A DNA stretch of 24,230 nt, taken from positions 1 to 24,230 of IMG/VR virus record IMGVR_UViG_3300017773_000135; one strand, given 5' to 3'. The position numbers were made by a program, and so were the translations under genes. The notes beneath the pieces were generated by a model. It was not told the DNA's origin, searched no databases, and was given only the letters and a program-made list of their open reading frames with translations. This DNA comes from a virus. Below, one piece after another: positions 6,729-21,923 of the stretch (position 1 is the stretch's first letter; every line of letters starts with the position of its first letter).

Positions 6729-7019
6729 ATGGCATCAAAAAAAGACCCCCGGCTCGCGAGGGCTGGGGTTAGTGGATTCAATAAACCGAAACGGACTCCG
6801 TCCCATCCGAAGAAAAGCCACATTGTTGTTGCAAAGGAAGGTGACAAAATCAAGACAATTAGATTCGGAGAGCAAGGAGCGAAAACGGCGGGAAAACCCA
6901 AAGCGGGTGAATCTGACCGTATGAAAAAGAAACGGGCTAGCTTCAAGGCGCGTCATGCTAAAAATATAGCCAAAGGAAAAATGTCAGCAGCCTACTGGGC
7001 TAACAGAGCGAAGTGGTGA
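6729..7019 (+). CDS. Basic 96-aa conserved phage protein
   Basis: A 96-aa, strongly basic protein preceded by AGAGGTGAT. It begins MASKKDPRLARAGVSGFNKP, carries a short beta-like core HIVVAKEGDKIKTIRFGEQG (31-50) and ends in a Lys/Arg/Ala-rich helix finishing SAAYWANRAKW. I recall close relatives of this sequence in marine phage genomes, typically beside scaffold and capsid genes, but not an assigned function. The TIRFGEQG core flanked by positive charge suggests nucleic-acid or acidic-protein binding. It forms a pair with the next gene, which starts 4 nt downstream. Function unassigned. Confidence 0.8.
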   Translation: MASKKDPRLARAGVSGFNKPKRTPSHPKKSHIVVAKEGDKIKTIRFGEQGAKTAGKPKAGESDRMKKKRASFKARHAKNIAKGKMSAAYWANRAKW

Positions 7020-7023
7020 TCTA

Positions 7024-7419
7024 ATGGCTAGAAGTGACGAACCTAAGTGGAAACGTATTGTTGCAGCAGTAAAAGCAGGCAGCAAAGGCGGAAAACCGGG
7101 TCAATGGTCTGCTAGGAAAGCACAGTTAGCCACACAACGATACAAAAAGTCAGGCGGCAGCTATTCTGGCCCTAAAACTAAAGCCCAAAAGTCATTATCT
7201 AAATGGACAAATGAAAAATGGGGGACAAAATCCGGTAAAAACAGCACACAAGGTAAAAAAGCAACTGGTGAGCGGTATTTACCAAAAAAAGCAAGAGAAA
7301 GCTTAACCAAAAAGGAGTATGCGGCAACTTCCGCAAAGAAACGCAAAGACACCAAGGCGGGTAAACAAGTATCTAAGCAACCTAAAAAGATTGCGAAGAA
7401 AACATCACGTTATAGATGA
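7024..7419 (+). CDS. DUF5872-like basic protein
   Basis: A 131-aa protein very rich in Lys. It shows, in order, WKRIVAAVKAGSKGGKPGQ (9-27), WSARKAQLA (28-36), KSLSKWTNEKWGTKSGK (56-72) and GERYLPKKAR (82-91), and ends KKIAKKTSRYR. The KWTNEKWGTKSGK...GERYLPKKAR combination matches my memory of DUF5872, a family found in marine phages and some large viruses with no established function. The very high positive charge fits DNA or acidic scaffold binding inside the head, which is inference. It starts 4 nt after the previous gene; GGTGAT near the end of that gene may serve as ribosome binding site. Confidence 0.82.
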   Translation: MARSDEPKWKRIVAAVKAGSKGGKPGQWSARKAQLATQRYKKSGGSYSGPKTKAQKSLSKWTNEKWGTKSGKNSTQGKKATGERYLPKKARESLTKKEYAATSAKKRKDTKAGKQVSKQPKKIAKKTSRYR

Positions 7420-7427
7420 GGTAAAAA

Positions 7428-7730
7428 ATGAGTGATAAAGGCATAGTGATACCTACTTGGGCTATCCCATTGGTTGTTAGTTTGTTTGTTGGTGCTGTAT
7501 CTTATGGCGCAGCACAAGCCAACGCTGAAACTACAACTAAAGAAGTTAAACGCATAGAAGTGATAGTGAAAGAGACAGCTAAAAAAGCGGCTGAAAATGG
7601 CCAAGCACAAGCTGTTACAGAAACTAAAGTTGATGCGATTGTTGACTCTTTGGCTCGGCAAGAAAAGATCCAAGAAAAGACTAACGAGCAAATCCAAGCG
7701 TTAGTAGCAGCATTACTCGCTAAAAAGTGA
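7428..7730 (+). CDS. Membrane-anchored coiled-coil protein
   Basis: A 100-aa protein with one N-terminal membrane segment (about residues 8-29, IPTWAIPLVVSLFVGAVSYG) followed by a helical, probably coiled-coil, domain rich in Glu, Lys, Gln and Ala (35-95). GAGGT precedes the ATG. Orientation and function are unknown; the segment could be a signal anchor placing the coiled coil in the periplasm. Its stop overlaps the next gene (GTGA), the first link in a chain of four overlapping small genes. It resembles spanin or holin accessory shapes in outline only and lies far from the lysis cassette, so I do not assign it to lysis. Confidence 0.7.
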   Translation: MSDKGIVIPTWAIPLVVSLFVGAVSYGAAQANAETTTKEVKRIEVIVKETAKKAAENGQAQAVTETKVDAIVDSLARQEKIQEKTNEQIQALVAALLAKK

Positions 7731-7918
7731 AAATGGTGTTTGCCCTCCTTTTCTTCGTTAATGGCGAAGTTGAGGAGGAAAAGACACTGTATTACTTAAA
7801 AAAGCAACACTGTCTGTACATGTGTCAAGAACTAGCAAGACCCTCCAGTAAATATGAGGCAGTTGACTGTGTCTGTAGAGTTATGTGGGTCGATGTAAAG
7901 AATACAGTTGTCAGATGA
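7727..7918 (+). CDS. Small Cys-containing protein of unknown function, copy A
   Basis: Up to 63 aa. The start is either GTG 7727, which overlaps the previous stop as GTGA, or ATG 7733 (61 aa, beginning MVFALLFFVNGEVEEE). The N terminus is short and hydrophobic; the rest contains a C-x-x-x-x-C pair (CLYMC) and a second pair near the end (CVC). It shares an outline with the next gene: an initial VFAL segment, a middle C-x-Y motif, and a terminal Cys followed by a V-D dipeptide. I infer distant paralogy. Similar short VFAL-type proteins occur in marine phages without known function. The cysteines could form disulfides if exported, or bind metal. Confidence 0.6.
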   Translation: MKMVFALLFFVNGEVEEEKTLYYLKKQHCLYMCQELARPSSKYEAVDCVCRVMWVDVKNTVVR

Positions 7919-8157
7919 AGCAGTTAGTATTTGCTCTAATGCTGGAAACGCTGACTGCCGATGGTTTTGTAATCGAAACAGAAGAGTACGGTGTATGGGC
8001 TGATCTAAACAAATGCACATACTTTAGTAGAAGTATTAGTTTGCAAGGCGTTGAAGGCACGGCAGGTATTACATTTAAAGAAGCATACCCTGTTCCTATA
8101 CGGGCGTACTGTAAACCTAAGTACGTAGACCCAGAAATAACAGAGATATTTAAATGA
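7915..8157 (+). CDS. Small Cys-containing protein of unknown function, copy B
   Basis: ATG 7915 overlaps the previous stop as ATGA and gives 80 aa beginning MKQLVFALMLETLTADGFV. The frame is open upstream to an earlier ATG at 7885, but the 4-nt overlap and the match to its neighbour's N terminus favour 7915. It has a short hydrophobic start, CTYFSRS in the middle and AYCKPKYVD near the end. The two cysteines sit where the neighbour has its cysteine pairs. No enzyme motif is seen. Its ATGA junction to the next gene suggests tight translational coupling and fixed stoichiometry. Confidence 0.65.
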   Translation: MKQLVFALMLETLTADGFVIETEEYGVWADLNKCTYFSRSISLQGVEGTAGITFKEAYPVPIRAYCKPKYVDPEITEIFK

Positions 8158-8258
8158 TATCAGGTCAAGATTGGTCGGACATAAATACGTGGGTAGGGTT
8201 GGCTCTCGCCTTGATTCTCTTTGGGTTCACTGTTGTGAGTCTTATATTCTACACGTAA
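8154..8258 (+). CDS. 34-aa single-span membrane miniprotein
   Basis: ATG 8154 overlaps the previous stop as ATGA. The 34-aa peptide begins MISGQDWSDINTWVG and then runs LALALILFGFTVVSLIF as one membrane-spanning helix, ending YT. It is the fourth gene in an overlapping chain (7428-8258) and the last before the capsid promoter. Its size and layout (DWSD followed by a single helix) match the 34-aa product at 21185-21289 in the lysis cassette. A short helper of a membrane complex is plausible; the role is unknown. Confidence 0.68.
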   Translation: MISGQDWSDINTWVGLALALILFGFTVVSLIFYT

Positions 8259-8272
8259 GTGTTGCATTGTTA

Positions 8273-8292
8273 TAATACCTATACTAATATTG
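8273..8292 (+). promoter_or_regulatory. Promoter-like 20-bp motif before the capsid gene
   Basis: TAATACCTATACTAATATTG lies 14 nt after the stop of the small membrane gene and 217 nt before the capsid ATG. Its first six bases (TAATAC) are those of T7-type promoters. It also contains TATAAT (8271-8276), which could be a sigma-70 -10 box, but I see no -35 element at the right distance. It closely matches the copies at 835-854, 21936-21955 and 331-350 (minus strand). Inferred to give dedicated capsid transcription. Confidence 0.65.
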
Positions 8293-8509
8293 TACATACG
8301 TCCATCCCTACGATATGGGGTCGGCCCGTAGCCGTAAAAAACGTATCCCTCGCCTACAAAGGCGTAAAACCTGTCGAGGTCGCACCTCGTTAATAAGCGC
8401 TAGTTCGTTGTCCCACGATACGGGAATACGGATTAGCCGCTCCTTTAAGTCGGCTGATAAGGCGGCATGTGCCGCATAAATTATTTTGTCAATTTAATAG
8501 GAGGCCATC
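8293..8509 (+). promoter_or_regulatory. Structured 5' leader of the capsid mRNA
   Basis: This 217-nt stretch contains several potential hairpins in order: CCCTA/TATGGG (8306-8319, one-base bulge); CGCC-tacaaa-GGCG (8351-8364); CGAGGT-cgc-ACCTCG (8375-8389); ATTAGCCG paired with CGGCTGAT (8432-8458, one G-U pair); and GCGGC-atgt-GCCGC (8462-8475). Two imperfect copies of a CCC..ACGATA..GGG...TAGCCG block lie at 8306-8334 and 8412-8439. A T-poor A/T stretch and the strong AGGAGG ribosome binding site follow. A 54-codon Arg/Lys-rich frame (8315-8479) also exists but lacks a ribosome binding site. I favour an RNA leader affecting stability or translation; it is not a tRNA and matches no riboswitch I know. 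Confidence 0.5.
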
Positions 8510-20810: not shown

Positions 20811-21188
20811 ATGAGTATATTAACTACCCTCCTCGGCCCAGTTGCAGACTTAGGTAAAACCTACCTAAACAATAAAGCTGAAGAGAAACAAGCCAAACAT
20901 CAAGCAAAGATGAATGTCATTCAAAATGATGCTGATTGGGAATCCAAAATGGCGGATGCATCTGCCTCAAGTTGGAAAGACGAGTTTTGGACTATTATAT
21001 TAGCCATACCAATATTTATGACAGGTTATGCGATAGCCGCTGATGATATGGCGGTTGTAGAGCGCGTACAGCAAAGTTTCCAAGCACTGTCTGAGTTACC
21101 GGAGTGGTACCAATATTTATTATTTATTGCGATTTCTAGTTCGTTCGGGATTAAGGGCGCTAAAAAGCTAATGGAGCTACGAAAATGA
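20811..21188 (+). CDS. Holin, GTA-holin (3TM)-like
   Basis: A 125-aa protein with AGGA upstream. After a charged helical region it shows SSWKDEFWTIILAIPIFMTG (53-72), a membrane segment, then a loop ending LPEWYQYLLFIAISSSFG (96-113) as a second segment. The W-K-D-E-(F/Y) entry and P-x-W-Y before the last helix match the GTA_holin_3TM family as I recall it. A shorter hydrophobic stretch near the N terminus could be the third membrane contact. Holins permeabilise the inner membrane to release or activate the endolysin. It heads a four-gene chain ending in a peptidoglycan peptidase, which supports the role. Confidence 0.8.
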   Translation: MSILTTLLGPVADLGKTYLNNKAEEKQAKHQAKMNVIQNDADWESKMADASASSWKDEFWTIILAIPIFMTGYAIAADDMAVVERVQQSFQALSELPEWYQYLLFIAISSSFGIKGAKKLMELRK

Positions 21189-21289
21189 AACCCGACTGGT
21201 CTGATCCTGAAATACTAATCATGGCGATTGTTGCTAGTAGTGCCCTAACGATACTACTAGTTTTTACTTATAGGCTCGTACTTTTATGA
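21185..21289 (+). CDS. 34-aa membrane miniprotein in the lysis cassette
   Basis: ATG 21185 overlaps the holin stop as ATGA, and its own stop overlaps the next start as ATGA. The peptide begins MKPDWSDPEILIMAIVASSA and continues as one membrane helix ending YRLVLL. Two tight stop-start overlaps make it very likely a real gene. It has the same length and plan (DWSD, then one helix) as the product at 8154-8258. It may modulate holin timing (antiholin-like) or be a pinholin-type element, but nothing in the sequence decides this. Confidence 0.75.
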   Translation: MKPDWSDPEILIMAIVASSALTILLVFTYRLVLL

Positions 21290-21567
21290 ACGATCCAGAA
21301 ACTAACCGGCGGTTTGACCGGATAGAAATCAAAATCGATAAGTTGACGGAAGTAATGAGCAATGTAGCGCGCGTTGAAGAGCAGATCGTCGGTGTAAATG
21401 GCCGTCTCAAGCGTCATGAATATCGTCTTGATGAAAATGAAAAGAAGATAGAAGAAGTCAGCGAGATCGTAGCTACTAACTCTCAGGTGGTAAAAGTAGG
21501 GCAAGCGATCGCCGCGTCAATTTGGGCCGGTTTTATTGGTGTATTTATGTATATGTTTAAGGATTAG
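21286..21567 (+). CDS. Coiled-coil protein with C-terminal membrane helix (XhlA-like)
   Basis: A 93-aa protein. Residues 8-65 are heptad-like and charged (FDRIEIKIDKLTEVMSNVAR, then GRLKRHEYRLDENEKKIEEV), followed by one membrane segment (about 72-91, GQAIAASIWAGFIGVFMYMF) and a short FKD end. This N-terminal coiled coil plus C-terminal helix layout resembles XhlA-type haemolysin/holin partner proteins. Together with the holin-like gene and the peptidase it probably completes membrane disruption. A spanin role is less likely because no lipobox is present. Starts by ATGA overlap with the miniprotein before it. Confidence 0.75.
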   Translation: MNDPETNRRFDRIEIKIDKLTEVMSNVARVEEQIVGVNGRLKRHEYRLDENEKKIEEVSEIVATNSQVVKVGQAIAASIWAGFIGVFMYMFKD

Positions 21568-21569
21568 TA

Positions 21570-21923
21570 ATGAACGAGTTTAAGTATTTTAAATTGGAAG
21601 ACTTTGATTGCCAAGAAACTGGCAACAATGAAATGGACACGGGGTTTATTCATAAGTTAGATCACTTACGGGCTGCTTGCGGGTTCCCGTTTATTATAAC
21701 CAGTGGATACAGAGATCCAGAAGGCCACAGCCTTGAAAAAGCAAAGCAAAAACCAGGACAGCATGCACACGGTATTGCAGCAGACATTGCTGTAAATGGT
21801 GGTAGTCAGCGAATGACAATTGTGAAACATGCTGCGGCACTAGGCTTTACGGGTATAGGCGTTGCTAAAACGTTTATACATGTTGATATACGCACTACGA
21901 CTCCAATGCTTTGGTGCTATTAA
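21570..21923 (+). CDS. Endolysin, M15-type peptidase
   Basis: A 117-aa enzyme with AAGGA before the ATG. It shows TSGYRDPEGH (44-53), the zinc-binding QHAHGIAADI (64-73; ligands H65 and D72) and FIHVDIR (102-108; ligand H104, with D106), the pattern of M15 (peptidase_M15_3) D-Ala-D-Ala/L-Ala-D-Glu peptidases. It would cleave peptide bonds in peptidoglycan to lyse the host. There is no signal peptide, so it needs the holin encoded just upstream. Length is usual for single-domain M15 endolysins (about 115-140). It is the last gene of the lysis cassette; a promoter-like motif follows 12 nt later. Confidence 0.92.
   Translation: MNEFKYFKLEDFDCQETGNNEMDTGFIHKLDHLRAACGFPFIITSGYRDPEGHSLEKAKQKPGQHAHGIAADIAVNGGSQRMTIVKHAAALGFTGIGVAKTFIHVDIRTTTPMLWCY

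Follow-up and report, generated by a model that had tools for sequence, protein, structure and literature searches.

A conserved cassette of four overlapping small genes, found in the lysis modules of most relatives, lies upstream of the capsid gene in a virus fragment

Four overlapping genes between a basic-protein gene and the capsid gene

The DNA analysed here (the window), a virus fragment of 24,230 bases, has terminase, portal and major head protein genes that match PHROGs families, the nearest cultured match being the Pseudomonas phage KPP25 and its relatives (~39% identity for the portal and ~52% for the capsid protein). After the gene for a basic 131-aa protein and before the major capsid gene lie four small genes, here called A to D (Table 1), which are joined by 4-base overlaps reading GTGA at A/B and ATGA at B/C and C/D. 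An initial annotation of this DNA had described a chain of four overlapping genes with these overlaps, two of them encoding membrane proteins; we found all the frames at the same positions, and hydropathy gave one transmembrane (TM) segment each in A and D and no convincing one in B or C. B probably begins with the GTG at 7727, which lines up with the MKMVFAL start in relatives, where the codon is ATG or GTG, and a longer GTG start proposed for C by the ORF finder is improbable compared with the ATG at 7915. That no function could be named from the letters alone agrees with our searches, in which A–D had no significant family match in Pfam, PHROGs or PADLOC, nor A–C in NCBIfam.

Table 1. Coordinates of the cassette, its neighbours and the lysis genes in the window.
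Feature	Position	Strand	Description	Family match
Neighbour, basic 96-aa protein	6729–7019	+		phrog_7595
Neighbour, basic 131-aa protein	7024–7419	+		phrog_17747 and phrog_14910
Gene A	7428–7730	+	100 aa; one N-terminal TM (~residues 6–24) opening with an IPTWAIP motif, then ~70 aa predicted helical	
Gene B	7727–7918	+	63 aa from GTG; predicted soluble beta-beta-alpha-beta; Cys pairs CxxxC and CxC; paralogue of C	
Gene C	7915–8157	+	80 aa from ATG at 7915; predicted soluble beta-beta-alpha-beta; Cys34 and Cys66 nearly invariant	
Gene D	8154–8258	+	34-aa peptide, single TM	
Capsid-gene leader	8248–8509		~250 bases, strongly conserved	
Promoter-like site in leader	8248–8276		10/12 matches; scan overall near chance	
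Major capsid gene	starts 8510			phrog_334
Holin-like membrane protein (lysis module)	20811–21188	+		phrog_2524
XhlA-like coiled coil (lysis module)	21286–21567	+	C-terminal TM	phrog_1193, E 3e-4
Peptidase M15 endolysin (lysis module)	21570–21923	+		PF08291, above cut-off

The sequences flanking the cassette have features of their own. The 131-aa protein resembles a fusion, phrog_17747 and phrog_14910 being separate genes beside the lysis genes in relatives such as L115 and L118. The 96-aa protein has a net charge of +22 and also adjoins the cassette in relatives' lysis modules; proteins of its family are common to cyanophages, Roseobacter phages and HMO-2011, with up to ~80% identity in genomes that are otherwise different. 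On the other side, the leader of the capsid gene is conserved among 55 distinct relatives and contains several conserved stem-like stretches; an Rfam search of the window, this leader included, gave no match.

Conservation and coding evidence

Relatives were gathered from IMG/VR with four queries, namely the capsid protein, C, A and divergent C-like proteins. The search for the four-gene order in other phages, which the initial annotation had proposed, recovered A–B–C in 49 dereplicated loci, with the 4-base B/C overlap in 48 and an A/B start offset of −3, 0 or +2 bases in all 49. In 39 of these loci the gene after C encodes a small TM peptide, of which there are several different sequence types; a few of these D calls, starting with TTG or of unusual sequence, could be false. 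The genes form a co-inherited, translationally coupled unit, the tight coupling being what the initial annotation had read from the overlaps. Relatives of A were confirmed in viral contigs (n = 139), and its sole genome_contigs match, from Massilia (L200), was dismissed, the frames inspected nearby including no phage genes.

Pairwise median pN/pS values, which carry no tree correction, were 0.16 for A, 0.34 for B, 0.44 for C and, within the MISGQDW type, 0.36 for D, compared with 0.32 for the M15 endolysin, A being more constrained than the latter. Synonymous differences between copies of A, B and C are near saturation (median proportions 0.73–0.81), and the 90–95% identity of A across phage backbones therefore reflects strong constraint, recent transfer being ruled out as its source. 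Together with the conserved order and overlaps, these data show that A–B–C–D are four real genes.

B and C belong to a family that includes gp62 of HMO-2011

Profiles seeded with B, with C or with gp62 of Puniceispirillum phage HMO-2011 (AFV50593) find one another and all converge on 185 unique ORFs. On this sequence evidence B and C are paralogues within one family of predicted soluble proteins that they share with gp62. Cys34 is kept in 175 of the 175 aligned family members and Cys66 in 173, and Cys38 and Cys64 occur together in 49, singly in five and not at all in 121. This pattern suggests two paired sites, which may form two disulfides or, in B, a four-Cys metal site; the independent changes at Cys38/Cys64 are few, because the B subfamily shares much of the signal. 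AlphaFold2 predicts a beta-beta-alpha-beta arrangement for both C (pLDDT 88.1) and B (pLDDT 92.3), in which the 'VFAL' segment is modelled as the first strand rather than as a membrane helix.

Structural searches returned background-level scores for C against the PDB (Foldseek best E 1.3; VIA-align best Z 3.8), and a PDB sequence-profile search with the B/C alignment found no relative. Matches in BFVD were weak (best E 0.014) and fell on unnamed small viral proteins, including one of Pelagibacter phage HTVC025P; divergence within the mixed B/C alignment was too great for a pattern scan. Many tiny beta-alpha phage proteins inhibit host enzymes, and B and C might likewise be small cytoplasmic inhibitors serving host takeover or counter-defence, a reading to which their small soluble fold and a weak resemblance to T7 Gp2 (Z 3.3) and phi29 p56 (Z 2.5) would lend themselves. 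These Z scores are nonetheless at background level, and early takeover genes are not typically tied so constantly to two membrane proteins, as B and C are, or placed late or among lysis genes; we consider such a role quite improbable.

Among cultured phages, tblastn with C matched HMO-2011 alone, and weakly, and with A it found no relative. gp62 shares with the window's B and C their protein family and lies upstream of its phage's lysozyme gene, but it differs from the window's genes in being single-copy, with no A neighbour found, and is annotated as a hypothetical protein; it also adjoins a methanesulfonate monooxygenase gene. Pelagibacter phage HTVC119P (L331, 33501–33743) encodes, directly upstream of its lysozyme, an 80-aa protein that by eye resembles C in size and in its strand–Cys–helix–Cys layout, though the C-family profile does not match its sequence.

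Lysis-module location in relatives

We found that in other marine phages, of different backbones, the cassette is usually placed among lysis genes. Of the A loci whose flanks are complete, 21 of 30 have an endolysin or holin-like gene within 3 kb, as do 45 of the 58 C-family loci, the holin labels being given partly by homology to genes of PHROGs families of unknown function (one of the four families is named 'holin'). The corresponding control, anchored on the capsid gene in the window's lineage and, as a single gene in a single lineage, not an ideal one, gave 0/32 by the same measure. M15 endolysin homologues stand immediately before gene A in many relatives, and the exact order endolysin–A–B–C–(D)–holin occurs in about a dozen loci (M15–A–B–C–D–holin in L084, L091 and L124, for example, and M15–A–B–C–holin in L115). 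About ten further loci have the order A–B–C–(D), then holin and M15, as in L100 and L109, where A–B–C–D is followed by holin-like and M15 genes; in L108, a homologue of the phrog_2524 holin-like gene comes close after the cassette. The link thus spans two unrelated endolysin types (M15 and phage lysozyme) and several holin-like families, and C-family genes without A, gp62 of HMO-2011 among them, are lysis-linked too. D adjoins holin genes, and there are separate holin candidates.

In the window, by comparison, the cassette and the lysis genes are ~13 kb apart (M15 at 21570), and the latter have no cassette copy of their own. The observation in the initial annotation that the chain sits away from the lysis genes is therefore correct for this DNA but not in general, such separation being exceptional among relatives.

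A variable pre-capsid slot and changes of location

The slot before the capsid gene is variable, and the cassette is one option among several. In many capsid relatives the slot is empty, with 251–256 bases from the 131-aa gene to the capsid gene, and elsewhere it contains just one C-like gene, another kind of coiled-coil gene with an N-terminal TM, a coiled coil together with a secreted-looking protein, or A–B–C–D. In two relatives (L014, 4392–5749; L018, 4405–5744), a pre-capsid protein of ~280–295 aa with a signal-peptide-like N-terminus is accompanied by an N-terminal-TM coiled-coil protein. Conservation of order and frames among close relatives, whose failure the initial annotation had named as refuting its reading, holds in every place where the cassette is present, although the cassette as a whole is missing from many close capsid relatives.

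In a DNA tree of A–B–C, pre-capsid copies fall in three separate places among the lysis-linked copies, and the well-supported branches force at least three location changes. Such counts give no direction; we infer that the lysis site came first because it is the commoner state. Were A–D instead head or ejection proteins acting in capsid assembly or DNA entry, the head-operon position would be the functional one, in line with the window's arrangement, where the cassette has scaffold-side genes on one side and the capsid gene on the other. However, most relatives with the same capsid are without the cassette and most carriers have it at the lysis site, and we consider this explanation very unlikely.

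A mobile, optional unit of intact order that encodes membrane proteins is also what might be expected of a moron for superinfection exclusion or envelope modification, in which inner-membrane A and D, with B and C, would keep related phages from adsorbing or delivering their DNA; the pre-capsid slot is itself moron-like in that relatives have unrelated small membrane or secreted genes there. Against this stand the repeated placement of the cassette exactly between endolysin and holin and the very slow evolution of A, exclusion proteins often being ones that diversify. PADLOC gave no match either, its library consisting of defence systems with few phage exclusion genes. Since the ends of late regions also gather unrelated accessory genes, exclusion or another envelope function retains some probability, and we regard it as unlikely rather than remote.

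Possible role in lysis

Our favoured reading, held tentatively and at somewhat less than even chances, is that A–B–C–D belongs to the phage lysis module as a mobile accessory and, in the window's lineage, was relocated to the head operon. From its linkage to lysis genes we infer a lysis auxiliary at the inner membrane, and the cassette would most likely act at the host inner membrane late in infection. A–D would be made late and in fixed ratios from the structural transcript, with A and D as inner-membrane proteins and B and C as partners binding A, or possibly the holin or the endolysin. B and C might then tune the timing or manner of membrane and wall breach, in an antiholin-like or holin-helper role. 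The cassette is not essential for lysis, since the window's lineage works with the 13-kb separation and many relatives lack it. Counting against a lysis auxiliary, the phages that carry the cassette already possess holin, XhlA-like and endolysin genes; moreover, proximity to lysis genes may mark a hot spot, because late-region ends collect accessory genes, as with the methanesulfonate monooxygenase gene of HMO-2011.

The A, B, C and D families look undescribed, as they have no significant match in the libraries used and the cultured relative of C is only a hypothetical HMO-2011 protein; accessory gene sets of lysis modules as such are already known. The HMO-2011-type genome paper reports lysis genes generally, and its relevant passages name no function for small proteins of this kind (PMC9038755). 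With still more reserve than for the lysis accessory itself, we suggest that the cassette could be a widespread lysis-control module of marine phages, combining a highly conserved membrane-anchored helix and a mini membrane peptide with a pair of Cys-paired soluble paralogues, and portable between unrelated lysis systems. Phage lysis of marine bacteria drives ocean nutrient turnover, yet most lysis modules in uncultured marine phages lack annotation. A portable, conserved unit linked with several different kinds of endolysin and holin would help in studying how these phages time or complete lysis and, if the lysis role is true, roles could be assigned to protein families absent from the libraries used.

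Comparison with known lysis systems

XhlA/XhlB-type holin accessories also include a small membrane coiled-coil protein adjoining holin and endolysin, but A has its TM first, the opposite order, and no significant profile match to them (only phrog_1193 at E 0.26, with no Pfam XhlA match), and an XhlA-like gene is present elsewhere in the window. With the inner-membrane component (i-spanin) of two-component spanins such as lambda Rz/Rz1, A has in common an N-terminal TM followed by a predicted helical domain, and it lies in the lysis modules of most relatives, though not in that of the window. In a spanin-like system, A would be the i-spanin and a partner would link it to the outer membrane.

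The classical two-component spanin requires an outer-membrane lipoprotein (PMC6139136). A simple lipobox scan, which may miss unusual signals, found no such partner in the window, itself incomplete, or in most cassette loci, and the classical form was rejected; unlike Rz/Rz1, moreover, the cassette has an extra paralogous soluble pair. B and C, without lipobox or clear export signal and modelled as soluble, are poor candidates for the partner, and we judge a two-component spanin-like system very unlikely. The unimolecular spanin layout, with lipobox and C-terminal TM in one protein, is absent from each of A–D. Roseobacter phage CRP-1 (L333, 4870–5211) encodes, after the putative endolysin, a protein annotated as hypothetical that is a candidate for a unimolecular spanin, its N-terminus being lipobox-like and its C-terminal end carrying a TM.
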